This document shows, in pieces, positions 23,045 through 57,089 of a stretch of DNA of 64,000 bases (positions are counted from its first letter, which is position 1; every line of letters begins with the position of its first letter). A program made the position numbers and the translations under genes. Source of the stretch: Candidatus Gemmiger excrementigallinarum (lineage in GTDB: Bacteria > Bacillota > Clostridia > Oscillospirales > Ruminococcaceae). The notes under the pieces are model-generated. The model was given only the letters and a program-made list of their open reading frames with translations, did not search any database and was not told where the DNA came from. The DNA lies in NCBI GenBank assembly GCA_019116445.1, contig DXBP01000002.1, positions 1-64,000 of the forward strand, read 5' to 3'.

Positions 23045-24730
23045 TCAGCCTTCCTGCTTCGTGGAGTCTGACGAAGGTGCCGGGGACGCCGTGGGCGTAG
23101 GCACCGGCGTAGGTGCCGCCGAAACCTTCAATTCAAAAACCGCCTCTGCGCCGTTGTTGCTCGCACGGATATGATAGGTTCCCTCCTGGTTGGCCGTAAA
23201 GGTCACCTGATCACCCGTAGCTTGCCAGGAAGTTTCATCGCAGCGCCAGGTCACATCCCCCTGCTTGTTCTGCACATTGGCATTAAGCGTGGTGCTGCCT
23301 CCCGCAGTAATGGTACTGGTACCACTGATGCTGATTGCCGTCGGGTCCGACTGAACCGTTACCGTGATTTGAGCAGAAGAGAACGTACCGTTGATCTCAA
23401 TGCCGGCACGTACAACATAGCTGCCTGCTTCGCTGGGCGTGAAGGTAAACGTACCGCCGTTTTGCTCCAGTTCGTCATTAACCGACCATTGTACATTGCT
23501 ATTGTCGTAGCTCTTACCGCCCAGTTTCACTGTTGCGGTGATGGAAATGGATTCCCCTTTTTTGATGGTAGAATCTCCACGGTCCAATGTAAGCTCTACA
23601 CGCGCATCATTAAACATGGCCGTCACGGAAATATCTTTTTTTACAACATCATAGCGCGTAGCATCGGTCACACCATCGCTCCATTTATAGAAGGTGTACC
23701 CCTCCGCAGGCACCGCTGTCACGCTGACCTGGGCACCCGATTCCGCCTGGATTTCCAAGCTGGTAACACCGGTTTTACCATTTCCCGTCAAGGTTCCCTT
23801 GGCCGAATCCTCTACCGCATAATTGGCCGTGAATTTAGTCGGCGTGGCGGAGGGCGTGGGTGACGCGCTGCTTCCGGAAGCAGCCTGTGCCGCACGCTTG
23901 GGAATATCATCCGTATCCGGACGGGTGTCATCTGTCTGGTACGCATGGGATTTTACATATTCCAGAACGGCATTGGCTCCCGCCGCGTTCAGGGTTCCTG
24001 CCGAAGTGTCTACATAGCTGGCTTCTGCATAGCCTTTGCTGTCCTTGAGTACCTCGGAAAGATTCAGATACTTATACCCTATTTCATTACAGGCTTCTGC
24101 AATGGCCTGGTTGAACTGGTCGATAAGGGTCTGGGTTTGCGCGGCATTCTCGCTGTCCTTCACAACCGGCTGAATGGCACAGGCAATCAAATCACAGTAG
24201 GAATAAGAGTTCTTGATGTTCTGCAGGGCCTGTTTGTAATCGTTCATGAATTCATCAACGGTAACAGATCCATCCACATCATTGCTGCCGATCATAACAT
24301 ATACGCGGCGCGCCTTCATCTTGGCAATTGCCTGCGGAATGGTATACGTATTCGCATCGTCCTCAAATGCAACGCAGCTTTCCTTCAGGAAATTGGAGAT
24401 TTTCAAATCTTCCTTGCCCGCATATTGGTCCAAAGTAATACGTCCATCCTTTTGCAGCGCCAAAGCTGTACGATCGCCCACAAACAGGCTGGATGTAATG
24501 TAAGAATCATCTGCGGAAGCATCTTTCAAAACCGCTTCCAAGCTGGTATCCACAGGATAAAGATCCGGATCGTAAGAGTCATTTGCGCCAAACAAGTTCA
24601 GGCTTTGAGGCAGAATCCACGCCAAAACAAAACTGATAACCACCGCCAGTACGCACGCAGCCAGCACAATACAGGCTTTGCGTTGAATCGGGCTAAGGCC
24701 GGACGCGACACGGGATTGTTTACGGCTCAT
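23045..24730 (-). CDS. Membrane-anchored SGNH-fold protein with repeat and Ig-like domains
   Basis: N-terminal TM; SGNH-like FVGDRTAL...VYVMIGSND; InlB/Flg_new-like YTFYKWSDG; Ig-like tandem; Pro-rich tail; ATG 24730 with SD AGGAGGT. Confidence 0.75.
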   Translation of the reverse strand: MSRKQSRVASGLSPIQRKACIVLAACVLAVVISFVLAWILPQSLNLFGANDSYDPDLYPVDTSLEAVLKDASADDSYITSSLFVGDRTALALQKDGRITLDQYAGKEDLKISNFLKESCVAFEDDANTYTIPQAIAKMKARRVYVMIGSNDVDGSVTVDEFMNDYKQALQNIKNSYSYCDLIACAIQPVVKDSENAAQTQTLIDQFNQAIAEACNEIGYKYLNLSEVLKDSKGYAEASYVDTSAGTLNAAGANAVLEYVKSHAYQTDDTRPDTDDIPKRAAQAASGSSASPTPSATPTKFTANYAVEDSAKGTLTGNGKTGVTSLEIQAESGAQVSVTAVPAEGYTFYKWSDGVTDATRYDVVKKDISVTAMFNDARVELTLDRGDSTIKKGESISITATVKLGGKSYDNSNVQWSVNDELEQNGGTFTFTPSEAGSYVVRAGIEINGTFSSAQITVTVQSDPTAISISGTSTITAGGSTTLNANVQNKQGDVTWRCDETSWQATGDQVTFTANQEGTYHIRASNNGAEAVFELKVSAAPTPVPTPTASPAPSSDSTKQEG

Positions 24731-24801
24731 GGGTAACAGTGACCTCCTTGGTTGCAGCATGGGGTACGGCAAGCCATATCCCACCTAGTATAAACGAAAT
24801 C

Positions 24802-24810
24802 ATTATAGCA
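24802..24810 (-). promoter_or_regulatory. Predicted extended -10 (TGCTATAAT) of the SGNH gene
   Basis: Minus strand TGCTATAAT about 75 nt upstream of the start; poor -35. Confidence 0.45.
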
Positions 24811-24869
24811 TAAAATCAGCCTTTTGAATACACATTTTCCAAAAATGTAACGTATTACAAAAACATTAC

Positions 24870-24897
24870 AAAAAAAGGCCGGCTGTCCAGCCGGTCT
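24870..24897 (-). terminator. Terminator of the ABC importer operon
   Basis: GACCGGCTG-GA-CAGCCGGCC hairpin followed by TTTTTT on minus strand. Confidence 0.85.
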
Positions 24898-24907
24898 TTG
24901 TCATTTA

Positions 24908-25702
24908 TCAGGACAGAAGCATTCGGTCATTGGCAAAGTCGCCATCACTCACCTGTTCAAACCGCTTCAAAAGATCACTTACCTGCAAATTCGCCTTTTC
25001 CTCATCACGGACATCGTAGATCACACGACCTTCATACATCATGATCAGCCGATTCCCGTATCGGATGGCATCCTTCATGTTGTGCGTAATCATCAGTGTT
25101 GTAAGATGATTTTCATGGACAATTTTATCCGACAACGCCAGAACTTTTGCGGCGGTTTTCGGGTCCAGTGCCGCAGTATGCTCGTCCAAGAGCAGAAGCC
25201 GCGGCTTTTTCAGCGTTGCCATCAACAGCGTAACGGCCTGCCGCTGCCCGCCGGAAAGAAGTCCCACCTTGGTGGTCATACGGCTTTCCAACCCCAGATC
25301 CAGCGTTTTCAAAAGCTGATAATATTCTTCATGCTCTTTTTTGGTTATCCCCGTTCGAAGCGTTCTGGCCATCCCGCGCCGGGCTGCCAGCGCAAGGTTT
25401 TCATCGATCCCCATGGTGGCTGCCGTTCCCATCATCGGATCCTGAAAAACACGGCCGATATATTTTGCACGCTGATGCTCCGACAGGCGGGTCACATCTT
25501 TCCCATCGATGATGATTTTTCCCATATCAATGGGCCATACACCGGCCACAGCGTTCAGCATCGTAGACTTACCAGCGCCGTTACCGCCAATCACCGTAAC
25601 GAAATCCCCGTCTTCCAATTTCAAATCCAAACCGTTGAGAGCCACTTTTTCGTTTACCGTGCCAGCGTTGAAGGTCTTATAGACATTTTTGATTTCAAGC
25701 AT
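24908..25702 (-). CDS. ABC transporter ATP-binding protein
   Basis: Walker A GGNGAGKSTML, signature LSGGQRQAV, Walker B LLLLDEHTAALDP. Confidence 0.93.
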   Translation of the reverse strand: MLEIKNVYKTFNAGTVNEKVALNGLDLKLEDGDFVTVIGGNGAGKSTMLNAVAGVWPIDMGKIIIDGKDVTRLSEHQRAKYIGRVFQDPMMGTAATMGIDENLALAARRGMARTLRTGITKKEHEEYYQLLKTLDLGLESRMTTKVGLLSGGQRQAVTLLMATLKKPRLLLLDEHTAALDPKTAAKVLALSDKIVHENHLTTLMITHNMKDAIRYGNRLIMMYEGRVIYDVRDEEKANLQVSDLLKRFEQVSDGDFANDRMLLS

Positions 25703-26642
25703 TGTTTTTGTCCCCCTTCTTCACGGTTGGCTTGGTAAAATAGCGGCTCTTCCAGTAAGGAACCGTCAGGAACACCGCAACGACCAGCGCAGTGAGCAGC
25801 TTCAGGTCATCGGTAGACAGTCCCAGACGCAGTACAAAAGTCATAACCATATAATAGATAATCGCACCAATCACGGCTGCAATCAGTTTCAGCGCAAAGT
25901 TGCGGAACACCTTGCCGAAAATCACTTCTCCGATAATCACAGCCGCCAGCCCGATAACGATAGCACCGCGGCCCATATTGATATCAGAAAATCCCTGGTA
26001 TTGTGCCAGAAGTCCGCCGGACAGCGCCACAAGTCCATTGGAAATCATAAGTCCCAGAACCTTGGCAAAGCTGGTATTGATTCCCTGCGCACGGGCCATG
26101 TTCTGATTGGCACCAGTAGCGCGAAGCGAACATCCGAGCTCCGTGCCAAAGAACCAATAAAGCACCGCTACCAGAACGCCGCAGAATATCACAAGGGTCA
26201 GCAAGGGGTTATTCAACGCCGCATCCCGTACATAACGGGCCGATACCAGCAAATTGTACTTATCAACACTGACCGGAAGGTTGGCCTTACCGCCGCCTGT
26301 ACCAGTGCCCATGATTCGCAAGTTTACAGAATACAAAGCCAGCTGTGTAAGAATGCCGGACAAAATGGCCGGAATCCCGCACGCCGTATGGAACAGACCT
26401 GTCACCATACCTGCCAGCATACCGGCGAGTGTGGCCGCCAAAAGAGCAAAACCTACCGGGACTCCGTTCAATACCAGAACAACGCAAACAGCTCCTCCGG
26501 TTCCCAATGAACCATCCACTGTCAAATCAGCAATATCCAGAACTCGGTAGGTAATGTACACACCGATTGCCATAATGCCCCAAATCAAGCCCTGTGCCAC
26601 AGCACCGGGCATAGAATTGAGAAGTGAAACCAGAAATTCCAT
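25695..26642 (-). CDS. ABC transporter permease
   Basis: Multi-TM protein; TYRVLDIADLTVDGS and GCSLRATGANQNMARAQGIN typical of this import family. Confidence 0.9.
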   Translation of the reverse strand: MEFLVSLLNSMPGAVAQGLIWGIMAIGVYITYRVLDIADLTVDGSLGTGGAVCVVLVLNGVPVGFALLAATLAGMLAGMVTGLFHTACGIPAILSGILTQLALYSVNLRIMGTGTGGGKANLPVSVDKYNLLVSARYVRDAALNNPLLTLVIFCGVLVAVLYWFFGTELGCSLRATGANQNMARAQGINTSFAKVLGLMISNGLVALSGGLLAQYQGFSDINMGRGAIVIGLAAVIIGEVIFGKVFRNFALKLIAAVIGAIIYYMVMTFVLRLGLSTDDLKLLTALVVAVFLTVPYWKSRYFTKPTVKKGDKNNA

Positions 26643-26683
26643 CCGAAAGCCATCCTCCGTCCGCTGTATTTTTTAGCGCCAAA

Positions 26684-26719
26684 ACAGCGGAGAAAGGGCG
26701 CAGGCCCTTTCCCCGCTGT
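26684..26719 (-). promoter_or_regulatory. Strong intercistronic hairpin between binding-protein and permease genes
   Basis: ACAGCGGGGAAAGGGC-CTGC-GCCCTTTCTCCGCTGT, 16-bp stem with one G-T pair, followed by only TTTT. Confidence 0.75.
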
Positions 26720-26732
26720 CACTAAGTCCCTT

Positions 26733-27764
26733 TTACTCAGCGATTGCCTCGTAACCTTCCGGCGGAGTCAATCCCAATGCTTCGCAATTTGCCGCGTTAT
26801 ATTTTTTGGTTACATTGGGTGCAAATTCAACCGGCATTGTGGAGATATCCGCACCTTCTGCCAGAATCTGATACGCCATGGTACCGGTCTGGTAGCCCAG
26901 ATCATAGTAGCTGATGGACAATGTGGCCACACCGCAACCTTTGCAGATGCCTTCTTCACCGGCAATCACAGGCACCTTAGCGGGAAGCACCACATTTGCA
27001 ATCGCCTCGGTGTTGGACGCGGCCGTGTTATCCGTGGGAATGTAAATGACATCGGAAGCATCCGCAGCCGTCTGGGCCACAGACGTAACATCGTTGGTAT
27101 CTGTGAACGCATAACGGGTTACGGTATAACCGGCATCCGCCAGATAGCCCTCCATCACATCGCACTGATATACAGAGTTTGCCTCCGCACTGCAGTAAAG
27201 CAAGCCAACGTTGACGGCATCCGGGAACAATTCTTGAATCATTTCCGCCTGCTGATCCAACGGAGCAAGATCAGACGTACCGGATACATTCCCGCCTACC
27301 GTACCGGACCAGTCACTGATATCCAAGGCCGTGGCGTAATCCGTTACAGAAGTGCCCAGAATGGGGATATCGGAAGTTGCCTGTGTAGCAGTCTGAAGCG
27401 GCGCCGTGGCATTGGCCAAAATAAGGTCCACATCTGCAGAAACAAAACCGTTAATGATCGTAGAGCAGTTGGCCGTATCGCCGGAGGCATTCTGTTCATC
27501 AAAAGTAACGTTATCCGCGCCCAGTTTTTCCGTCAACGCATCCTTGAATCCCTGCGTAGCGGCATCCAGTGCATCATGCTGAACCAGCTGGCAGATACCA
27601 ATACGGTAAGTCTGCCCGGTTTCCGCTCCCGCTGCAGAAGTTTCGGCAGTAGTGCCGGTAGATTCAGCCGCCGAAGAGGTTTCTGCCGTGGAGGCAGATC
27701 CTCCACAAGCCGCAAGGCTCATGGCCATGGCAGCAGCTACCAACAGAGAAACAGATTTTTTCAT
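26733..27764 (-). CDS. ABC transporter substrate-binding lipoprotein (ABC_sub_bind type)
   Basis: Signal peptide plus lipobox MSLAACGG; IGICQLVQHDALDAATQGFKDAL; ATG 27764. Confidence 0.9.
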   Translation of the reverse strand: MKKSVSLLVAAAMAMSLAACGGSASTAETSSAAESTGTTAETSAAGAETGQTYRIGICQLVQHDALDAATQGFKDALTEKLGADNVTFDEQNASGDTANCSTIINGFVSADVDLILANATAPLQTATQATSDIPILGTSVTDYATALDISDWSGTVGGNVSGTSDLAPLDQQAEMIQELFPDAVNVGLLYCSAEANSVYQCDVMEGYLADAGYTVTRYAFTDTNDVTSVAQTAADASDVIYIPTDNTAASNTEAIANVVLPAKVPVIAGEEGICKGCGVATLSISYYDLGYQTGTMAYQILAEGADISTMPVEFAPNVTKKYNAANCEALGLTPPEGYEAIAE

Positions 27765-27837
27765 CGTTCTTCCTCCAAACAGTATCGGCTCCACGCTCAG
27801 CCTGTGCTGTATACTCCCTCCGCTTTGCCGATTTAGT

Positions 27838-27874
27838 GCTTTAAAGTATAGCATACTTCGCCTCTTTAAAGCAA
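27838..27874 (-). promoter_or_regulatory. Promoter with nested palindromic operator upstream of the ABC importer
   Basis: Minus strand TTGCTT-18 nt-TATACT; 9-bp inverted repeat GCTTTAAAG/CTTTAAAGC with inner AAGTAT/ATACTT. Confidence 0.6.
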
Positions 27875-27941
27875 CATGCTATTTGCACAAATTTCCCCTT
27901 CATTTTCCGTGACTATTGTGCAGTTCCGCCGCTTTTTGCAG

Positions 27942-27972
27942 CAAAAAAGCGGACAGAAACCATCTGTCCGCT
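27942..27972 (-). terminator. Terminator after the PTS IIA gene
   Basis: AGCGGACAGA-TGGTT-TCTGTCCGCT followed by TTTTT on minus strand. Confidence 0.88.
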
Positions 27973-27986
27973 TTCCTTATCCCGGA

Positions 27987-28460
27987 TCAATCGCCAAAAC
28001 AGGCATTTTCTACTTTTTGCAAAAGTTCCAAAAAGCGAGTCGGGCTACTGGCGTGACGCAGGGCGTCTACCAGTGTATTCCGCCCCAGCAGATTCACAAG
28101 CCTTGCAAGAATCTGCAAATGCAGTCCATCTTCATCTGGCGGCACCGCAATCATAAATAATAAATCTACCGGACGTCCATCCGGCGCGCCCCAGTCTACG
28201 CCGCGGCGCAATGTAAGAGCCGAAATACCTGGTGCAGATACACCTGCATTAACAGCATGCGGCAGCGCAATGCCTTCGCCTATTGCCGTTGTTCCGCCGA
28301 AGGTTTCGCGCTGGCAAACTGCATTATAATATGCCGTACCATTGGTAATAACGCCAATCCCTTCCTGCAGCTCCACCAAAATTCCCAAAGCGTCCGCTGC
28401 ATTATCGATATTGGCATAGAGCAGTATTCCTTTGGGGTCCATCAGTTTGCTTACTTTCAT
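27987..28460 (-). CDS. PTS EIIA (fructose/mannitol type)
   Basis: AIGEGIALPHAVN phospho-His motif; 157 aa. Confidence 0.88.
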   Translation of the reverse strand: MKVSKLMDPKGILLYANIDNAADALGILVELQEGIGVITNGTAYYNAVCQRETFGGTTAIGEGIALPHAVNAGVSAPGISALTLRRGVDWGAPDGRPVDLLFMIAVPPDEDGLHLQILARLVNLLGRNTLVDALRHASSPTRFLELLQKVENACFGD

Positions 28461-28483
28461 GGTCTATTCCCCTTTGACCGTTT

Positions 28484-29314
28484 TCAAACATCGGTCACTT
28501 TGCGGATCAGCTTGTATAAGTACTCGCCTACGGCACCTTCGGAACAGGTGCACGTTGTCACCTCGTCGGCCGTAGCCTTGACTTCTGCCGGCGCATTTGC
28601 AACTGCCACAGCATAACCGGCCGCCTTCATCAGTTCCAGATCATTGTAGTAATCGCCAATCACGATGGTCTTTTTCTGGGAACGGTTCATCAGCGCACAC
28701 AAGTCATGCATACCCGTTGCCTTGCTGACGCCCCCCGGCATAATTTCCAGATAGATGTTGTTGGTCGCCAGAAAATAGTTATCGCGCCCGTAATACTTCG
28801 TCTTGGCATATTGCCCAAGTTTCCGGATGGTTTCCGGGTCGGAGGCAAAAACCACTTTGACCCATCCATCCGGCACACACTCAATGGGGCACGCAATGCT
28901 TCCCAGATGTTCATCCACCTGGTGGGCATGCGTATATTCGTTGGCGCGGATCACATACATTTCCCCGTTACCGGCCATTACTTCTACACCCATGCGCGGA
29001 AATTTTGTCAGAACGTCTGCGATGGCAGTCGTAGCCTGTTCCCTGTTCAAGGTAGAACGGTGCAAAACCGATTCCGTTGAGAAATCATAGAGCAAAGCCC
29101 CATTACAGGAAATCGCTGGCAAAGAGAGCTGAATTCCCTCAAGCGCTGCGCGGATAGACTCCGGAGGCCGCCCGGTCGCTACCGTAAACATTCCTCCCAT
29201 TTCGACAAACAGCTGGATCACCGTCTTATTGCAGGTGGGAAGTCCCTCCTTTGCCGTAAGCAGGGTATTATCCATATCGCAGATGACAAGATAATCACTG
29301 AGTGCTGATTTCAT
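28484..29314 (-). CDS. Cof-type HAD hydrolase
   Basis: VICDMDNTLLTAKEGLP; VIGDYYNDLELMKAAGYAVAVANAPAEVKATAD. Confidence 0.9.
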   Translation of the reverse strand: MKSALSDYLVICDMDNTLLTAKEGLPTCNKTVIQLFVEMGGMFTVATGRPPESIRAALEGIQLSLPAISCNGALLYDFSTESVLHRSTLNREQATTAIADVLTKFPRMGVEVMAGNGEMYVIRANEYTHAHQVDEHLGSIACPIECVPDGWVKVVFASDPETIRKLGQYAKTKYYGRDNYFLATNNIYLEIMPGGVSKATGMHDLCALMNRSQKKTIVIGDYYNDLELMKAAGYAVAVANAPAEVKATADEVTTCTCSEGAVGEYLYKLIRKVTDV

Positions 29315-30249
29315 GCACGGTGTTCCTTTCTAAGCCGATTTAGAAATTCCGTAAAATAGGGGGGCAACGGCGAATCAAATTGAATCCACTCCCCTGTTGC
29401 AGGATGTACAAACCCCAATTCCTTGGCATGCAGGCATTGCCCATTCAAACTTTTAATACAATTGCGGGGCCCATATACAGCATCGCCCGCAAGGGGATGC
29501 CCCGTGGAAGCCATGTGTACGCGAATCTGATGCGTGCGACCAGTTTTCAGTTGGCAGGCAATATAGGTAAAATTGCCAAAGCGTTCCAACGCCCGCCATC
29601 CGGTATAGGCATAACGGGCACCTGCCGCTTCTTCCGGCACAACCGCCATTTTCTTGCGATCCCGGGGATCACGCCCCAGCCATGTTTCCACATAACCTTC
29701 GTCATCCTTGAGATTTCCGTACACTACCGCGTGATATACCCGATGGATGCTGTGCACACTCATCTGGGCGCTCAGCGCCTGATGGGTGGCATCGTTTTTG
29801 GCGACCACCAGCAGGCCGCTGGTATCCTTATCAATGCGATGCACAATGCCGGGACGAATTGCGCCTCCAATGCCAGACAGCTGGCCTTCGCAATGATACA
29901 GCAATGCGTTTACCAGCGTTCCGTCCGGATTTCCCGGTGCAGGATGCACAACCATACCCTTGGGCTTATTTACCACAATCAGGTCTGTATCCTCGTACAC
30001 AATGGAAAGCGGAATATTCTGCGGAACTGCTTCAATCGGTTTTGGTTCCGGCAGGCAAAGCAGATATTGAGCACCCGGGCAAACCTTCTCTTTTTTGTTC
30101 ACCGGACGCCCATTCTGAGTCACGCAGCCCTGCTCCATCAACGTCTGCAGTGCGCTGCGGGACAGGGACAAATCTGCACACTGTCTTGCCAGCCAGGCAT
30201 CCAGGCGTCCCTGGGCCTGGGGGCCGGCAACAATCTCAAGTGGTTCCAT
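29311..30249 (-). CDS. RluA/RluD family pseudouridine synthase
   Basis: S4-like N-terminus; IVHRIDKDTSGLLVVAKN; KTGRTHQIRVHM. Confidence 0.94.
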   Translation of the reverse strand: MEPLEIVAGPQAQGRLDAWLARQCADLSLSRSALQTLMEQGCVTQNGRPVNKKEKVCPGAQYLLCLPEPKPIEAVPQNIPLSIVYEDTDLIVVNKPKGMVVHPAPGNPDGTLVNALLYHCEGQLSGIGGAIRPGIVHRIDKDTSGLLVVAKNDATHQALSAQMSVHSIHRVYHAVVYGNLKDDEGYVETWLGRDPRDRKKMAVVPEEAAGARYAYTGWRALERFGNFTYIACQLKTGRTHQIRVHMASTGHPLAGDAVYGPRNCIKSLNGQCLHAKELGFVHPATGEWIQFDSPLPPYFTEFLNRLRKEHRA

Positions 30250-30757
30250 CCGAGGCCTCTTTTTGCTGTTTAGCCGCTTTTTCTGCCTTATCTTTCTGGA
30301 GGGAATCGTAAAAAATCCACAGCATCAGCAAAATAACACCCGTAGTAATACAGATATCTGCAAAGTTAAAGACCGCAAAATTGACAAACAGAACATTGAT
30401 ATAATCGACCACGACCCCATTCAGGAATCGATCAATCAGATTACCGATACCACCACCCAGAATCAGCGTCCAGGAAATGCGTTCCCACATTCCCATTTTC
30501 CGCAGCAGCAAAAGCAGCAGCACACAGATCAGCATAACGGAAGTTACGCCGATGAGCAGCATTTGTTTGCCTGCCAGCATAGAAAACGCCATTCCATCAT
30601 TCAGGTAATAGCGCAGTTCCAGAATGCCCGGCAGTACGGTTATGGCCCCCAGTGGTTGCAGTACCACGGTTGCCCAGTGTTTGATCAACTGGTCCACCAC
30701 CACCAAAATGGCAGCTACCAGCACAGATACAATGGAAACAATCATCTGAAACCCCAT
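30236..30757 (-). CDS. lspA: Lipoprotein signal peptidase
   Basis: VDQLIKHW, LNDGMAFS, GGGIGNLIDR, VNFAVFNFADICI motifs. Confidence 0.95.
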   Translation of the reverse strand: MGFQMIVSIVSVLVAAILVVVDQLIKHWATVVLQPLGAITVLPGILELRYYLNDGMAFSMLAGKQMLLIGVTSVMLICVLLLLLLRKMGMWERISWTLILGGGIGNLIDRFLNGVVVDYINVLFVNFAVFNFADICITTGVILLMLWIFYDSLQKDKAEKAAKQQKEASDGTT

Positions 30758-30763
30758 GATTTC

Positions 30764-30803
30764 AAAAAATCAGCGGTGCTTACACGAATATAAGCACCGC
30801 TGA
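30764..30803 (-). terminator. Terminator after ileS
   Basis: TCAGCGGTGCTTA-8 nt-TAAGCACCGCTGA perfect 13-bp stem followed by TTTTTTG on minus strand. Confidence 0.88.
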
Positions 30804-30811
30804 AAGTAAAA

Positions 30812-33586
30812 TTACATTCCGAGGACTTTTGCGCAACGCGGGCACAGACCGTTTTCGCCAACGGCCGTATCATACTTCCAGCAACGCAGGCACTTGGCGC
30901 CAGCCGCATGCTCAGCCTGTACGCCCAAGCCATCCACAACGCCCTTCACGCCGCCTTCTCCCTGTTCCAGACGAACCTGGGAAACGATAAACAAATCAGC
31001 CAGTTCATCCATCGGGATAGCATTCAGGAACGCGTAGACGTCTTCATTGCAGTACAGCGTCAAAGCCGCCTCCAGAGAAGAACCGATCAGCTTATCTGCA
31101 CGGGCCTGTTCAAGGACCTTCTTCACATCGTCGCGGATTGCCATGATGCGATCCCACTTGGCCGTGAAAGCCTCACCGGCCGCCGGCTTTGCTTCCGGCA
31201 TCTGCTCAAAGACAACATATTCCTTCATGCCGGGCATCTTGGGTACATAGCTCCAGATTTCCTGGCTGGTAAAGCACAGGATCGGCGCCAGCAGTTTGGT
31301 GAAATCCACCAGAATGCGGTACAGCGCCGTCTGGGCACAGCGGCGGGCATGATCGTCCGCGCAGTACAGGCGATCTTTGATGACGTCCATATAGAAGTTG
31401 GACATATCAATGACACAGAAGTTGTACAACGCATGGTAAGCGCGGGAGAAATCGTAATGATCGTAAGCATCCCGCATTGTAGCAGTCAGCGCATTGCAGG
31501 CTTCCAGTGCCCAGCGATCGATCTCAAAGAGCTGATCTTCCGGAACAGCATCTTTGTTCGGGTCGAAATCGCTGAGGTTGCCCAGCATAAAGCGGGCGGT
31601 ATTACGCATTTTGCGGTAGGCTTCCGACAGCTGCCGGAAGATTTCCTTACCGGCACGCACATCCACCGTATAGTCGCTGGAAGCCACCCACAGGCGGATG
31701 ATGTCTGCACCGTAATCACGGATGATCTCCGCGGGTTCCATACCGTTGCCGGCAGACTTATGCATCTGCTTGCCCTGGGCATCCACAACCCAGCCATGGC
31801 ACAGAACTTCACGGTACGGCGCGATTCCCTGCGTAGCCACACTGGTCAGCAAGCTGGACTGGAACCAACCGCGGAACTGATCCGCGCCTTCCATATACAT
31901 ATCAACAGGCCAGGTCAGTTCGGAACGTTCACGGCACACCGCGCTCCAGGTAGAGCCGGAATCAAACCAGACGTCCATGATGTCGGGATCTTTCTCCCAA
32001 TCCGAAGCACCACATTCGCAGACTTCCGTCTTGGGCATGATCTCATTGGCATCGTATTTATACCATGCGTCACTGCCCTCTTTGCGGAACAGGTCGGAAA
32101 CCGCCTTGATGGAGGCATCCGTGATGTGATACTTACCACACTTTTTGCAGTAGAACACCGGAATCGGCACGCCCCAGACGCGCTGACGGCTGATGCACCA
32201 GTCACTGCGATCCCGGACCATACCGGTCATACGGTCATGGCCCCAGGCCGGTTGCCAGTGCACACTGTCAATGGCCTTATAGACATCCTCCTTGAAGGCG
32301 TCAATGGAGCAGAACCACTGCTCGGTGGCGCGGAAGATGATGGGGTGATGGCAGCGCCAGCAATGAGGATACTGGTGGGTGATATGCTGTACCCCCATCA
32401 GGTGGCCGCTTTCCTTGATATGCTCCAGGATAACCTTATTGGCAGCCCAGACCTTCAGACCGGCAAATTCCTTACCAGCCTCCTCCGTCAGGCATCCGGC
32501 ATCATCCACCGGAACGACGATGGGCAGCTGGGGATAATGGTTGACGCAGACTTCAAAGTCCTCAACACCGTGGCCAGGCGCCGTGTGAACACAGCCCGTA
32601 CCGCCTTCCAGCGTAACGTGGTCGCCCAGAATCACGAGGCCTTTGCGCTCCAGGAAGGGATGCTGGTATTCCATCAGTTCCAGTTCATCACCATGAACCA
32701 CTTCGGGCAGCACTTCATATTCTTCAATATGGCAGGCTTCCATCGTGGGCTTGACCAGCTCAGCTGCCATGATGTGGTAGTCTTCGCCGATCTTGACGAA
32801 AGCATATTCAATATCAGGGTTCAGGCAGGTCGCCACGTTAGCGGGCAACGTCCAGGTTGTGGTCGTCCAAATCACGATCCATGCCTTATCCAGCGGAATA
32901 TTGTGCTTGGCCAGAACGCCCTTGGGATCAGCGGTCAGCTTAAAGCGGACATAAATGGAATCGCACTCGTCCTCAGCATATTCGATTTCGGCTTCAGCCA
33001 GCGCCGTACGGTCTTCCGGGCACCAGTAAACAGCCTTCATGCCCTTGTAGATGTACCCTTTTTTGGCCATCTCGCCAAAGATTTCGACCTGACGAGCCTC
33101 AAATTCAGGGCGCAGTGTCAGGTAGGGATTTTCAAAGTCACCCTGCACGCCAAGACGCTTGAACTGGTCGTTCATAACGTCAATATGCTCGGTAGCAAAC
33201 TCCTTGCAGATCTTGCGCAGTTCCAGCTTGGAAACACCGGACTTGTTATCGCCCAAAGAGCCCAAAGCCTTCAATTCAATGGGGAGGCCGTGGGTATCAT
33301 AACCGGGCACATAGGGAGCCTGGAAACCCGCCATGTTCTTGTAGCGGATGATGATATCCTTGATAATCTTGTTCAGCGCAGTACCCATGTGGATGCTGCC
33401 GTTGGCATACGGAGGGCCATCATGCAGAATGTAGCGGGGCTTACCCTCGTTATTGCGAATCATCTGCTCGTAGACGTGGTTCTGCTCCCAGTCCTCCAGC
33501 ATTTTGGGTTCCTTTTTCGGCAGGCCGGCCCGCATTTCAAAGGGCGTCTGCATCTTGTGGATGGTATCATTGTAATTCTGCGGCAA
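30812..33586 (-). CDS. ileS: Isoleucyl-tRNA synthetase
   Basis: HDGPPYANGSIHMGTALN, MHKSAGNG (KMSKS variant), C-terminal zinc motif CLRCWKYD...CPRCAKVL. Confidence 0.97.
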   Translation of the reverse strand: MPQNYNDTIHKMQTPFEMRAGLPKKEPKMLEDWEQNHVYEQMIRNNEGKPRYILHDGPPYANGSIHMGTALNKIIKDIIIRYKNMAGFQAPYVPGYDTHGLPIELKALGSLGDNKSGVSKLELRKICKEFATEHIDVMNDQFKRLGVQGDFENPYLTLRPEFEARQVEIFGEMAKKGYIYKGMKAVYWCPEDRTALAEAEIEYAEDECDSIYVRFKLTADPKGVLAKHNIPLDKAWIVIWTTTTWTLPANVATCLNPDIEYAFVKIGEDYHIMAAELVKPTMEACHIEEYEVLPEVVHGDELELMEYQHPFLERKGLVILGDHVTLEGGTGCVHTAPGHGVEDFEVCVNHYPQLPIVVPVDDAGCLTEEAGKEFAGLKVWAANKVILEHIKESGHLMGVQHITHQYPHCWRCHHPIIFRATEQWFCSIDAFKEDVYKAIDSVHWQPAWGHDRMTGMVRDRSDWCISRQRVWGVPIPVFYCKKCGKYHITDASIKAVSDLFRKEGSDAWYKYDANEIMPKTEVCECGASDWEKDPDIMDVWFDSGSTWSAVCRERSELTWPVDMYMEGADQFRGWFQSSLLTSVATQGIAPYREVLCHGWVVDAQGKQMHKSAGNGMEPAEIIRDYGADIIRLWVASSDYTVDVRAGKEIFRQLSEAYRKMRNTARFMLGNLSDFDPNKDAVPEDQLFEIDRWALEACNALTATMRDAYDHYDFSRAYHALYNFCVIDMSNFYMDVIKDRLYCADDHARRCAQTALYRILVDFTKLLAPILCFTSQEIWSYVPKMPGMKEYVVFEQMPEAKPAAGEAFTAKWDRIMAIRDDVKKVLEQARADKLIGSSLEAALTLYCNEDVYAFLNAIPMDELADLFIVSQVRLEQGEGGVKGVVDGLGVQAEHAAGAKCLRCWKYDTAVGENGLCPRCAKVLGM

Positions 33587-51816: not shown

Positions 51817-51857
51817 AAAACAAACCTCCGTTCCAAAATTGGAACGGAGGTTTGTTT
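51817..51857. terminator. Bidirectional terminator between convergent genes
   Basis: AACAAACCTCCGTTCC-AAAATT-GGAACGGAGGTTTGTT perfect 16-bp stem with flanking A/T runs. Confidence 0.92.
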
Positions 51858-51901
51858 TGCTTCACTCAAAAAGACTCTCGGAGATGTAACACAGCAAACG
51901 A

Positions 51902-52975
51902 TTACGCGATGACAAAATGATAGATCAGCGACACCGCAATAATCAATGCACAGACAATTGCCGTGATCGGCGGAGCCCAATGGATGATACGTTCAGCCAT
52001 AACGTCGTCTTCGCTGGCCTCATCATCGTCCGCATAACGACCGCGCTTTTTCCCACGCGGCGCATCATCCTCGTCCTCGTCATCATAGTCGAGTTCGTCA
52101 GTGTCATACATCTGGGTGCCTTCGTCGTCGTCCTCATCGTCGTCAAACAAACGGCCCTTGGGTGCATACCGGCGAACACGTTCCATTTCTTCGTCTTCCT
52201 CCTGCGCATACCCCTGCGGGTCATACGTAGCAGTGGCGCCATCGTCGTATTCTTCGGTCTGGTTGATAGCGGCCTGTGCCGCGGCTGCCGTAGCAGCCGG
52301 GCTGGCCTGTGCGCGCTGAGGGTCAACGTTGTTGGCAACAGAATTGATTTCCTGCTGCTGCCGTTCCGCCGCACGCCGCGCATCCTCCAGGATGCCGGTC
52401 AAAGTTGCCTTGATGCCGGCGCGATCGCCACCACATTCAGAGCAGAAGGTGCAGTTTTCCTCGTTGGGATGGAATGCACCACAAGCGCAGAACCAGCCAT
52501 ATTCCGTATCCTGCGGAACACAGGTAAGCTGGCTGTTACCGGTACGCTGCTGCAGCGTCTTCGCAATGGAAGCCGGCAGCACACGAGGCATCTGCAGCCG
52601 GACGCGCTTATAACCGCGCAGGTCCACCCCGCGGCCGTTCAGGAACGCACGGTCCTGCTCAACCTCCACGCTGGATACCGGCGTATCGCTGACATACACC
52701 GCATCGTCGCTGCCGAACACATCGCCCGGCTGCGCATCAAGCTGTTCGTAATAGAAATCGTCTTCGCACAGAACCTGGCCAGCGGCATCCTTGCACTTGA
52801 AGTGAACCACCAAACCAGTCAGGGGCTCTGTACCCACATTTTTGAAGGTAAGGCACACCGCAACTTCGCCGGTCACATCGCCTTTCAGCAATTCAACCCG
52901 TACAAACTGCACCGGGCTTCCGGCCGTGTAATAATTGGCGCGGGACTGCGCCATCAGGGAAAAATTCTGATCCAT
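51902..52975 (-). CDS. Tail-anchored zinc-ribbon protein of unknown function
   Basis: WFCACGAFHPNEENCTFCSECGG ribbon, acidic DDDEDDDE region, C-terminal TM; 17 nt downstream of ftsH. Confidence 0.8.
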   Translation of the reverse strand: MDQNFSLMAQSRANYYTAGSPVQFVRVELLKGDVTGEVAVCLTFKNVGTEPLTGLVVHFKCKDAAGQVLCEDDFYYEQLDAQPGDVFGSDDAVYVSDTPVSSVEVEQDRAFLNGRGVDLRGYKRVRLQMPRVLPASIAKTLQQRTGNSQLTCVPQDTEYGWFCACGAFHPNEENCTFCSECGGDRAGIKATLTGILEDARRAAERQQQEINSVANNVDPQRAQASPAATAAAAQAAINQTEEYDDGATATYDPQGYAQEEDEEMERVRRYAPKGRLFDDDEDDDEGTQMYDTDELDYDDEDEDDAPRGKKRGRYADDDEASEDDVMAERIIHWAPPITAIVCALIIAVSLIYHFVIA

Positions 52976-52992
52976 GATCCAACACCTACTTT

Positions 52993-55083
52993 TTACTCTT
53001 GGGCGTCCGGTCGGTCTGCATCCGGCTCGGCAGCAGTCTTAGGTTTCGGGGCTTCCTCCTGTTCAGGGGTCTGGACCGGAGCGGAAGTATCCTGTTCCGG
53101 CTTGGCCGTTTCACCCTTTCCCAGATCGAACGGCGGCAATGTTCCGCCTTCCATCAGCGTTTTGAATTCATCACCGCTGATTTTTTCGCGTTCCATCAAA
53201 ACGGTGGCTATCTTATGCAGCTCTGTCATGTGCTCCGTCAGCAGCCGCCGTGCCGTTTCGTATGCTTCATCTACAATATCACGGATTTCATTATCGATTT
53301 CCGACGCAATAGCCTCCGAATAGCCCTTTCCCTGGCCAAAATCACGACCCAGGAAGGTCTGCCCGGGATCACTGCCATATACAACAGGACCCATACGCTC
53401 AGAGAAGCCATACCGGGTAACCATCGCGCGAGCCGTATCCGTAGCACGCTGCAGGTCGTTCGACGCACCGGTCGAAATATCGTCGAGCACCAACTGTTCG
53501 GCCACTCGACCGCCCAACAGAGAAACAATGTTTTCAAACATCGCCGTCTTGGTTACATAGCTGGGATCCTTTTCCGGCAAATACATCGTATAACCACCGG
53601 CCCCGCCACGAGAAATAATGCTGATCTGGTGCACGGGATCATGATGCTTGCCGAAATAGCCGGTAATTGCGTGACCGGTTTCATGGTAAGCGACCAGACG
53701 GCGCTCATCGTCCGTCACCACATGGCTCTTCTTCTCAGGGCCCATCATAACCTTAACGGAAGCTTCTTCGATTTCCGGCTCAGTGATGGCCTTTTTGCCG
53801 CGGCGAGCGGCCAGCAATGCCGCTTCATTGACAAGATTTTCCAGGTCTGCGCCCGAGAATCCTGCAGTAGTACGGGCGATTGTTTTCAGGCTGACATCCG
53901 GTCCGAGCGGCTTATTCTTGGTATGCACCTTAAGAATCTCCTCACGGCCCTTGACATCAGGCAGCCCAACATAAACCTGGCGGTCAAAACGCCCAGGACG
54001 CAGCAAAGCCTTGTCCAGAATGTCGGCGCGGTTGGTAGCCGCCATGACGATAACGCCGTCATTGGCATCAAAACCATCCATTTCCACCAGCAACTGGTTC
54101 AGGGTCTGTTCACGCTCATCGTGACCGCCGCCAAGGCCAGCGCCGCGCTGACGACCAACGGCGTCAATCTCATCGATAAAGACGATAGAAGGCATCGTCT
54201 TTTTGGCTTTTTCAAACAGATCGCGCACACGCGAAGCACCGACACCGACATACATTTCCACAAAGTCGGAACCGGAAATCGCATAGAAAGGAACGCCCGC
54301 TTCACCGGCACAGGCACGTGCCAACAGAGTTTTACCGGTACCCGGAGGGCCTACCAGCAACACACCGTGCGGAATCCGTGCTCCCAGGGAATTAAATTTT
54401 CCGGGTGCCTTGAGGAACTCCACAACCTCCTGCAATTCCGCTTTTTCTTCATCAGCACCGGCCACATCCGCAAACGTGGCTCTGCGCTGGTTTTCCTGCT
54501 GATCTTTGACCTTGGCGCGACCGACGTTCATAATACCGCCGCCGGCACCGCCACGGTACATCGACATAAACAGCATACCAAGGCTGCCCAGCATCACCAC
54601 ATAGAAGATAATTTCCAGCCAGGGAATGCTGGTCTTGGCTGCCACATAGTCAAAAATCATGGGGGCATCGGGATTTGCTTCGTTGTAAGCATCCACGAAA
54701 TCGGAAATTTTGCCGGTATTGAAGTCAACACCATAGGGCAGCTTGTAGGTGACATACACCGTGCCGCCATTCGCAGGAAGCATATCTTCTTCAGCTGCTC
54801 CCAGGCTGTTGAGCAACCCACCGGTCTGCTCATCGTCCATCTGGACGGTAGCTTCCGGAAGAGGAATCTTGCCTTCCTTAAGCCACATTTCCAGCTTATT
54901 GGTTCCCATATCCAAACGGTACGAGGTAACCTGCTGGTTTTCAAAATAATAATAAATCTCAGAATAATTGATATGGTTCGATGCGGTAGCCGACAGCAAC
55001 GGCGACAGACTGACAAAGAACAAAACCAACACCATGAGCACGGCAACCACAAGGATGCCGCTGAAACGAGGTTTATGCTGCAA
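52993..55083 (-). CDS. ftsH: ATP-dependent zinc metalloprotease FtsH
   Basis: [31 protein letters not shown] zinc site; N-terminal TM segments. Confidence 0.97.
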
Positions 55084-55141: not shown

Positions 55142-55693
55142 TTATTTGCTGTAGATTTCGGGTTTAAGAACACCCACATAAGGCAGGTTGCGATACTTCT
55201 CATCGTAATCCAGCCCGTAACCGACCACGAACTCGTCCGGGACTTCAAATCCAAGATAGTCCGGTTCAATATCTGCCTTGCGGCGGCTGGGCTTGCTCAG
55301 AATCGTACACAGGCGCACACTGTTCGGATTGCGCATCCGCAGCATGGGCAGCAGATGGGACAGCGTAATACCGGTGTCCAGAATATCCTCCACGATCAGA
55401 ACATCTTTGCCGGTGAGATCGGCATCCAGGTCCTTAACGATCTTAACGAGGCCCGTTGACTCAGTATTGGCTCCGCCATAACTGGAAACTACCATAAAAT
55501 CAATTCCGCAGGGAATCGTTACAGCGCGCATCAGATCAGCCATAAAGACGACAGACCCCTTGAGAATGGAAACCAGCAGCAGATCGCGGCCTTCATAGTC
55601 CCGGCTGATCTGCGCCCCCAGTTCTGCCACCTTCTGTTTGAGCTGTTCTTCTGATACCAAAATATGATCAATATCCTGATCCATGCTATGCAT
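55142..55693 (-). CDS. hpt: Hypoxanthine phosphoribosyltransferase
   Basis: VLIVEDILDTGITL PRPP motif; SD GGAGGA before ATG 55693. Confidence 0.94.
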   Translation of the reverse strand: MHSMDQDIDHILVSEEQLKQKVAELGAQISRDYEGRDLLLVSILKGSVVFMADLMRAVTIPCGIDFMVVSSYGGANTESTGLVKIVKDLDADLTGKDVLIVEDILDTGITLSHLLPMLRMRNPNSVRLCTILSKPSRRKADIEPDYLGFEVPDEFVVGYGLDYDEKYRNLPYVGVLKPEIYSK

Positions 55694-55697
55694 GCGC

Positions 55698-57089
55698 TTA
55701 ATCCTCCTCGGCTTTTTCCGTGTGCACCGTCCATACCTCGTTGGTATAAGAATCGGGAGCAACGCCTTCGGCAAAACCGCTGCCCCACAACCAGAGCACT
55801 TCACTTCCGTCCGCCAGCAAAGGAAGCAGCGAACGTTCATCCTGCGGAATTCCGAGTTCGTTATAGTATTTTTTCAACGTCTTGCGTACATGACGACCGG
55901 CCGGGCGGAAAAAATCCCCCGGCAGACGTGTACGCAAAAGTAGATTCTTCTGTATTTTAGCACAATCCGCGCAACAGTTTAAGTCTTTTTTGAAAATTGG
56001 TTGATTTTTTAGAAATTCTTCATACTTTACACGGCGAAATTCAACAAAATAACCACCCGGCAGCAGAAAACGCCCTTCGCTGAAAGGCTGCGGCGGCGCA
56101 GGCGGCGGACGTACGCCCCGGGGTGTCAGCCGCAACAAGACTCCATCCTTTACTTTGTAGGTCACTTCAGGCGTAAGCTGCAGGGCACCCTCACCGCGCT
56201 GAATCAGAAAGCGCAGTAGCGTAATATATTTTTCTTCCGCATCTCGCACCGGGCTTACCAGTGAATGCAGTGCCGCGTCCAGCACAGGGCCTTCTGCCTT
56301 ACGAAGAACGGATACCTCGTATCCATTCTCCACGGTGGCCGCCTGCAAAAGTGCAGCGGCCTCCCCCGTAAGCCACTGGTCCAGATCCCGTATCTGACGG
56401 CACAGCCGTGCAATGGCAACCTCCGCCGACGGATTTGCATATTGCAAAGCAGGGATGGCATCGTGGCGAATCCGATTGCGGGCATAGGTATTCTGTTCGT
56501 TGGTTTCGTCCTGAACATAGTTTTGCCCAAGTGCCGCACAGTATGCCTCAGTATCCGAACGGGTAAGGCAAAGACACGGGCGCACATAATAGCCCCGACG
56601 GGGCGGAATTCCTGCCAGGCCGTGCAGGCCGGTTCCCCGCGCCATGCGGAACAGGACGGTTTCCACCTGATCCGACATCGTATGGGCTGTTGCAATAAAT
56701 GCTTCTTCCTGAATCGCAAGGCGATCAAACCATCCGTAGCGAAGTCCGCGTGCCCATTCCTCACTGGGCTGCTGCGGGATTTCCACCCCTTCACGCAGGG
56801 CATCGTACAGGAACAGTTCCACACCGTTTTTGCGGCAGAAAGCTGTCACAAAATTAGCGTCAGCCACCGCATTGACGCCGCGGATTCCGTGATTGACATG
56901 GGTCGCCAGGACTTCAATTTCCAGATCCCGCCGCCGCCTAAGCAAAAAAAGCAACAAAGCCATAGAGTCTGCCCCTCCGGAGCAGGCTGCAATGACTCTG
57001 TCGCCAGACTTGAACAAGCCCTGTTGACGGCAATACGCCAGCAAGGTTTCTTCCACGTGTTGAATTACATTTTCGCTATCAGAACTCAT
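55698..57089 (-). CDS. tilS: tRNA(Ile)-lysidine synthase
   Basis: VIAACSGGADSMALLLFL PP-loop; HVNHGIRG; RNRIRHDAIP. Confidence 0.94.
   Translation of the reverse strand: MSSDSENVIQHVEETLLAYCRQQGLFKSGDRVIAACSGGADSMALLLFLLRRRRDLEIEVLATHVNHGIRGVNAVADANFVTAFCRKNGVELFLYDALREGVEIPQQPSEEWARGLRYGWFDRLAIQEEAFIATAHTMSDQVETVLFRMARGTGLHGLAGIPPRRGYYVRPCLCLTRSDTEAYCAALGQNYVQDETNEQNTYARNRIRHDAIPALQYANPSAEVAIARLCRQIRDLDQWLTGEAAALLQAATVENGYEVSVLRKAEGPVLDAALHSLVSPVRDAEEKYITLLRFLIQRGEGALQLTPEVTYKVKDGVLLRLTPRGVRPPPAPPQPFSEGRFLLPGGYFVEFRRVKYEEFLKNQPIFKKDLNCCADCAKIQKNLLLRTRLPGDFFRPAGRHVRKTLKKYYNELGIPQDERSLLPLLADGSEVLWLWGSGFAEGVAPDSYTNEVWTVHTEKAEED

Follow-up and report, generated by a model that had tools for sequence, protein, structure and literature searches.

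A tail-anchored, putative zinc-ribbon protein encoded directly after ftsH in Gemmiger: a possible FtsH adaptor

What is the role of the conserved protein whose gene lies directly after ftsH in Candidatus Gemmiger excrementigallinarum, and is the protease FtsH its partner? The gene was analysed in a window of 64,000 nucleotides, the whole stretch of contig DXBP01000002.1 (assembly GCA_019116445.1) under study. An earlier note on this DNA had described a tail-anchored zinc-ribbon protein of no characterised family, tightly linked to ftsH, and had suggested that it is an adaptor, substrate or regulator of FtsH. The features of the locus are summarized in Table 1.

The start codon ATG was located at 52975 and the stop at 51902 on the minus strand, a strand left unnamed in the earlier note. 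The ftsH stop at 52993 leaves a gap of 17 nt before the ATG, as had been claimed; the gap includes AGTAGGTG, in which AGGTG is a plausible Shine-Dalgarno-like run. The reading frame had also been said to end at a common terminator, and this was confirmed by the 19-pair hairpin at 51817-51858, which lies 44 nt past the gene stop and has T-rich tails. The frame encodes a genuine protein under strong purifying selection, because there is a single copy in the 2.38-Mb assembly, 30 orthologous loci with 65-88% identity (nearly all named Gemmiger) were found in a scan of genome contigs, and dN/dS for residues 1-199 was 0.012-0.037, a rough range with synonymous sites near saturation. The equally rough values for the last 40 residues, near saturation and given where estimable, were 0.015-0.074. 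The gene was found in 24 of 25 Gemmiger genomes, the sole genome without it being an 83% complete assembly. In each of the 30 comparisons within Gemmiger, residues 1-199 showed higher conservation than the aligned portion of FtsH. Across genera this order was reversed, with 55% identity in the domain, 69% in the ribbon, 28% in the linker and 47% in the tail, against a mean of 78% for the partial FtsH.

Table 1. Features of the ftsH-linked locus in the window, with residue ranges of the protein
Feature	Position	Strand	Basis
Protein gene, 357 aa	51902..52975	minus	ORF call; orthologues; purifying selection
ftsH, directly upstream	52993..55083	minus	ORF call; 78% mean identity (partial) across clade
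hpt and tilS, remainder of operon upstream of ftsH	55142..57089	minus	Order kept in Gemmiger
Rho-independent terminator	51817..51858	minus	19-pair stem; common to convergent pseudouridine-synthase gene
Predicted beta-sandwich (Ig/FnIII/ApaG-like) domain, residues 18-130	52586..52924	minus	AlphaFold2; Foldseek; signature NYYxxGSPVQFVxVELLKG
Four-cysteine ribbon WxCxCGAFHPxEE...CSECG, residues 161-183	52427..52495	minus	Cysteines invariant in alignment
Helix, then Ala/Gln-rich linker, residues 185-239	52259..52423	minus	Helix 185-198 in model; composition
Strongly acidic linker, presumably disordered, residues 240-327	51995..52258	minus	Composition
Thr motif DEGTQMYDTDE, family form [DE]x[PG]T[RQ][MV], residues 284-294	52094..52126	minus	Pattern count
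C-terminal transmembrane tail anchor HWAPPITAIVCALIIAVSLIYHFVIA, residues 332-357	51905..51982	minus	Hydropathy; IIRWAPPIT..xC kept across genera

The N-terminal region had been read as a beta-rich domain of about 130 residues, and the structure prediction and structural search proposed in the earlier note were carried out. With a relative (L029) as query, the best AlphaFold2 model showed residues 15-130 as a predicted beta-sandwich with pLDDT 86.8 and pTM 0.79, a confidence reached in one model of five, with pLDDT 37-57 for the rest. The first model, made for residues 1-199 from an alignment of near-identical rows only, gave the same strands at lower confidence (pLDDT 63). Among solved structures, Foldseek gave ApaG proteins as the best compact matches (TM-score 0.55-0.64, E about 0.001-0.006); it also matched Ig/FnIII domains within larger proteins. 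The identity of these ApaG and FnIII-like proteins to the query is 13-18% and the fold is common, so that the matches are no evidence for membership. A fold match to the N-terminal region (TM 0.81, 26% identity) was also seen in a predicted structure of BFVD, A0A8S5NAK4, a 467-aa protein of Phage sp. ctv3H3 named as RNA-binding protein.

The ribbon has the pattern CxC-x12-CxxC, and its cysteines C163, C165, C178 and C181 were invariant in 19 of 19 rows of alignment A2. Four cysteines of the pattern CxC...CxxCxxC reported earlier are thus conserved, while the fifth (C175, the first of CxxCxxC) is replaced in relatives by T, A or other residues. The two invariant Cys pairs, CxC and CxxC, are those which characterise Zn_Ribbon_1 (PF13240), for which 4 of 19 members gave a match below the curated cut-off (best E 0.055); the ribbon probably binds zinc. 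The helix after the ribbon reads DRILLQN in most other genera. The composition agreed with the Ala/Gln linker and acidic stretch described before, residues 240-331 containing 38 D/E against 11 K/R. The single C-terminal transmembrane (TM) segment was likewise supported by hydropathy and by its conserved sequence. The final 26 residues carry zero charged residues, and the TM region IIRWAPPIT..xC is kept across genera beyond what a plain anchor or mere hydrophobicity would need. Since charged residues stand ahead of the TM and none after it, the N-terminus is probably cytoplasmic (N-in) and the protein would face the cytoplasm.

The protein may itself be degraded by FtsH, which would thereby control its level: the free N-terminus would be drawn into the protease, and the common operon would provide a feedback loop. 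The membrane anchoring, the presumed cytosolic terminus, the low confidence of residues 1-19 in the 1-199 model and the co-expression with ftsH would suit such a protein. However, the sequence of residues 1-20 is highly conserved, unlike a free degron, and FtsH substrates are not generally encoded beside ftsH. A role as substrate is therefore considered improbable.

The searches for known families gave zero matches for the window protein in Pfam, NCBIfam, PHROGs, PADLOC and PDB sequence. Viral contigs searched by sequence contained zero relatives, and in the phages collection the sole match was to the repeat region of a distant relative. The result is in accordance with the earlier statement that no characterised family is recognised; no curated entry covers the protein family, which within the reach of these searches is also uncharacterised. 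Membership in DUF5780 (PF19092) was rejected, as the window protein had no match and the hhalign probability was 9%. The N-terminal domain of one distant relative matches this family weakly (E 1.7e-4, below cut-off) with a similar strand pattern, and the single clear match (L138) sits C-terminal, past the ribbon and TM. TcaA-type zinc-ribbon membrane proteins of Firmicutes have a ribbon and then a TM, as in the window protein, which gave no match to the TcaA family; in TcaA the ribbon is N-terminal and the external part is large.

A diverse profile matched 48 of 295 genomes of the order and 4 of 399 drawn from the phylum, the window genome included. The distant relatives consist of core, ribbon, charged helix and TM, mostly followed by 150-460 residues of TPR-like, LRR or other repeats, and none of these core-ribbon-TM relatives lies next to ftsH. 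The Oscillospirales core-ribbon-TM family (L055, L073, L074, L080-L101) was matched with E-values down to 1.4e-55 by a profile which itself includes one of those distant relatives. The window protein shares with it the homologous N-terminal domain over its length, the GSPV signature and the CxCG...CxxCG ribbon after the domain; it ends at the TM, whereas the family continues into extracytoplasmic repeats. The window protein looks like a trimmed form of a sensor-like core-ribbon-TM-repeat protein, the direction of change being one that we infer. In L080, L086, L096 and L100 the repeats after the TM, HTVGLKSDGTVVATG, read like RCC1-type propeller repeats. Several tandem core-ribbon copies and fragments (five matches) on contig 11 of G265, a genome of the order, at about 24600-31450, suggest a local expansion.

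These relatives, with ftsH absent nearby, favour the main rival to an adaptor role, namely an FtsH-independent membrane scaffold or signalling protein. Such a protein would be a trimmed descendant of the Oscillospirales core-TM-repeat proteins, its core would bind a cytoplasmic partner under control of Ser/Thr phosphorylation at EPTRM, and it would stand in the ftsH operon by history. The repeated Thr motif of the linker also favours it. The pattern [DEGPSQ][PGSEQ]T[RQ][MVTAF] occurred 33 times in 24 linkers against 1.3 expected from composition shuffles (maximum 7 in 500), a count which is inflated by kinship of the sequences and belongs to a pattern picked after inspection. The position and copy number of the motif vary (EPTRM, QPTRM, DEGTQMYD). 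The genome encodes a PASTA Ser/Thr kinase and FHA proteins, but among the FHA proteins of the genome, read for the Thr motif of the linker, none carry it and none are encoded nearby. The phosphoproteome of C. difficile PrkC reported no specific kinase motif (PMC9674922), which is neither for nor against the Thr motif as kinase site. As a possible site of phosphorylation or docking, the motif is taken as a lead only. Another locus (L150, G000 contig 35, 2930-7534) clusters a membrane protein with vWA and FHA domains, a small FHA-like protein with a zinc ribbon, an ATPase of FHA-FHA-ABC make-up and a permease, and may be a phospho-dependent transport or signalling unit.

The survey of synteny proposed in the earlier note covered 398 genomes and 126 genera of the family, and the orthologue was present in 49 genomes of 13 genera. 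The gene directly followed ftsH in 41 of the 49 carrier genomes and 11 of the 13 genera. In Gemmiger this position was found in 30 of 30 loci with a gap of 1-133 nt, and the order tilS-hpt-ftsH-gene was kept in all 27 loci whose flank extends to tilS and hpt. The tight linkage claimed before therefore holds in Gemmiger and in most carriers, but not in eight sister genomes nor across the wider domain family. The eight unlinked genomes belong to two genera (g48 and g63), and in them the gene always lies directly before the topoisomerase B gene. In five of the eight the protein stops shortly past the ribbon, without linker or TM; a TM-coding remnant was sought in the three forward frames 3' of these truncated genes and none was apparent. 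Among the three unlinked proteins which keep the TM, the two linkers measured were not acidic, with 8-9 D/E against 20-46 in the ftsH-linked clade. The Thr motif is present in the sister clade too. Every ftsH-linked protein with a complete ORF ends in a C-terminal TM. A quick tree, built without bootstrap, placed the ftsH-linked proteins in one clade (SH-aLRT 94) with three of the eight unlinked proteins as sister (SH-aLRT 85). The clade-level correlations count as a single evolutionary event. Most carrier genomes also have, at another site, a further FtsH paralogue of about 50% identity; the gene accompanies the closer copy (hpt-linked in Gemmiger), not this paralogue.

The other side of the gene was also compared. 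Topoisomerase B is its immediate downstream neighbour in roughly half or more of the loci outside Gemmiger that are linked to ftsH. Of 25 family genomes examined that lack the gene, 7 have topoisomerase B immediately after ftsH, a few others of the 25 being at contig ends or unresolved. The two genes were thus probably adjacent before the gene arrived between them, as this adjacency in genomes without it suggests, and its place beside ftsH may stem from one event or insertion. Such an origin would fit the FtsH-independent scaffold. Within the ftsH-linked clade, however, the junction with ftsH is intact throughout, whereas that with topoisomerase B has disappeared in Gemmiger and several other genera, which argues against pure chance for the linkage. 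This intact junction, together with the anchor and acidic linker which track ftsH linkage, speaks against the scaffold, and we regard that role as only slightly less probable than the preferred reading given below. The same comparison bears on whether the protein works with the topoisomerase B subunit encoded downstream, or in a nucleoid-membrane contact; the constant order in the eight sister genomes and its frequency in ftsH-linked loci may be cited in favour. The loss of the topoisomerase side in Gemmiger and elsewhere and the occurrence of the ftsH-topoisomerase B pair without the gene stand against it, and such a partnership appears improbable.

The preferred reading, held tentatively and a little short of even confidence, is that of a membrane-held, tail-anchored protein which acts as an adaptor or regulator of FtsH. 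It would be made from the tilS-hpt-ftsH operon, inserted by its tail and exposed to the cytoplasm. The C-terminal TM helix would dock beside FtsH in the membrane; the beta-sandwich and ribbon would capture a client protein or other regulator and present the captive to the protease; the long acidic linker would be a flexible arm, and the repeated Thr motif may serve as phosphorylation or FHA docking site. The contact with FtsH, the client capture and the phosphorylation are all steps that we infer. The adaptor reading is drawn from the adjacency to ftsH in most carrier genomes and genera and in every Gemmiger locus, from the ftsH side that was never lost, from the single TM-bearing clade with conserved IIRWAPPIT, from the loss of the TM in five of eight proteins away from ftsH and the non-acidic linkers there, and from the Gemmiger core being more conserved than FtsH. 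On the other hand, the core persists in the sister clade away from ftsH, and in part of it unanchored, so the core has an FtsH-independent use, and most genera of the family are without the gene, so FtsH does not generally need the protein. The possible origin of the adjacency in one insertion, and the single event behind the clade-level correlations, likewise weaken the adaptor reading. The suggestion of adaptor, substrate or regulator is hence supported by the shared operon and the conserved TM and weakened by a linkage that is no universal rule; the three are indistinguishable by sequence.

A comparable arrangement is known in E. coli, where the single TM helix of LapB binds FtsH and its cytoplasmic domains recruit LpxC (PMC9356133). 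LapB/YciM resembles the window protein in having a single TM, a zinc-ribbon-type domain in the cytoplasm and a domain that binds clients (client binding by the window protein being conjectural); it contacts FtsH by the TM helix, and the TM of the window protein is conserved. LapB/YciM has an N-terminal anchor, nine TPRs and a rubredoxin domain, whereas the window protein has a C-terminal anchor, a predicted beta-sandwich and an acidic linker. No TPR or rubredoxin match was obtained for the window protein in Pfam and NCBIfam, and membership in LapB/YciM fails on these domains and on the sole TM being C-terminal and not N-terminal. LpxC and LPS are not expected in the lineage of Gemmiger. The literature on FtsH with zinc-ribbon or tail-anchored proteins was searched and no paper was found. 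The most specific version, a lineage-specific FtsH adaptor of gut Oscillospiraceae in which a tail-anchored beta-sandwich and zinc ribbon carry an acidic linker switched by Ser/Thr phosphorylation, and which was derived by stripping the external part from the sensor-like family and entering the ftsH operon, is rather unlikely when taken as a whole.

The known FtsH adaptors are few, and none of such architecture was found in the literature searched. If the adaptor reading is true, an FtsH adaptor with a TM contact and a possible phosphorylation switch would be present in abundant human gut bacteria. A clean natural comparison is offered by the anchor and acidic arm, which are retained where the gene is linked to ftsH and often lost where it is not. 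Should the partner be something other than FtsH, the gene still defines an uncurated, strongly selected protein family.
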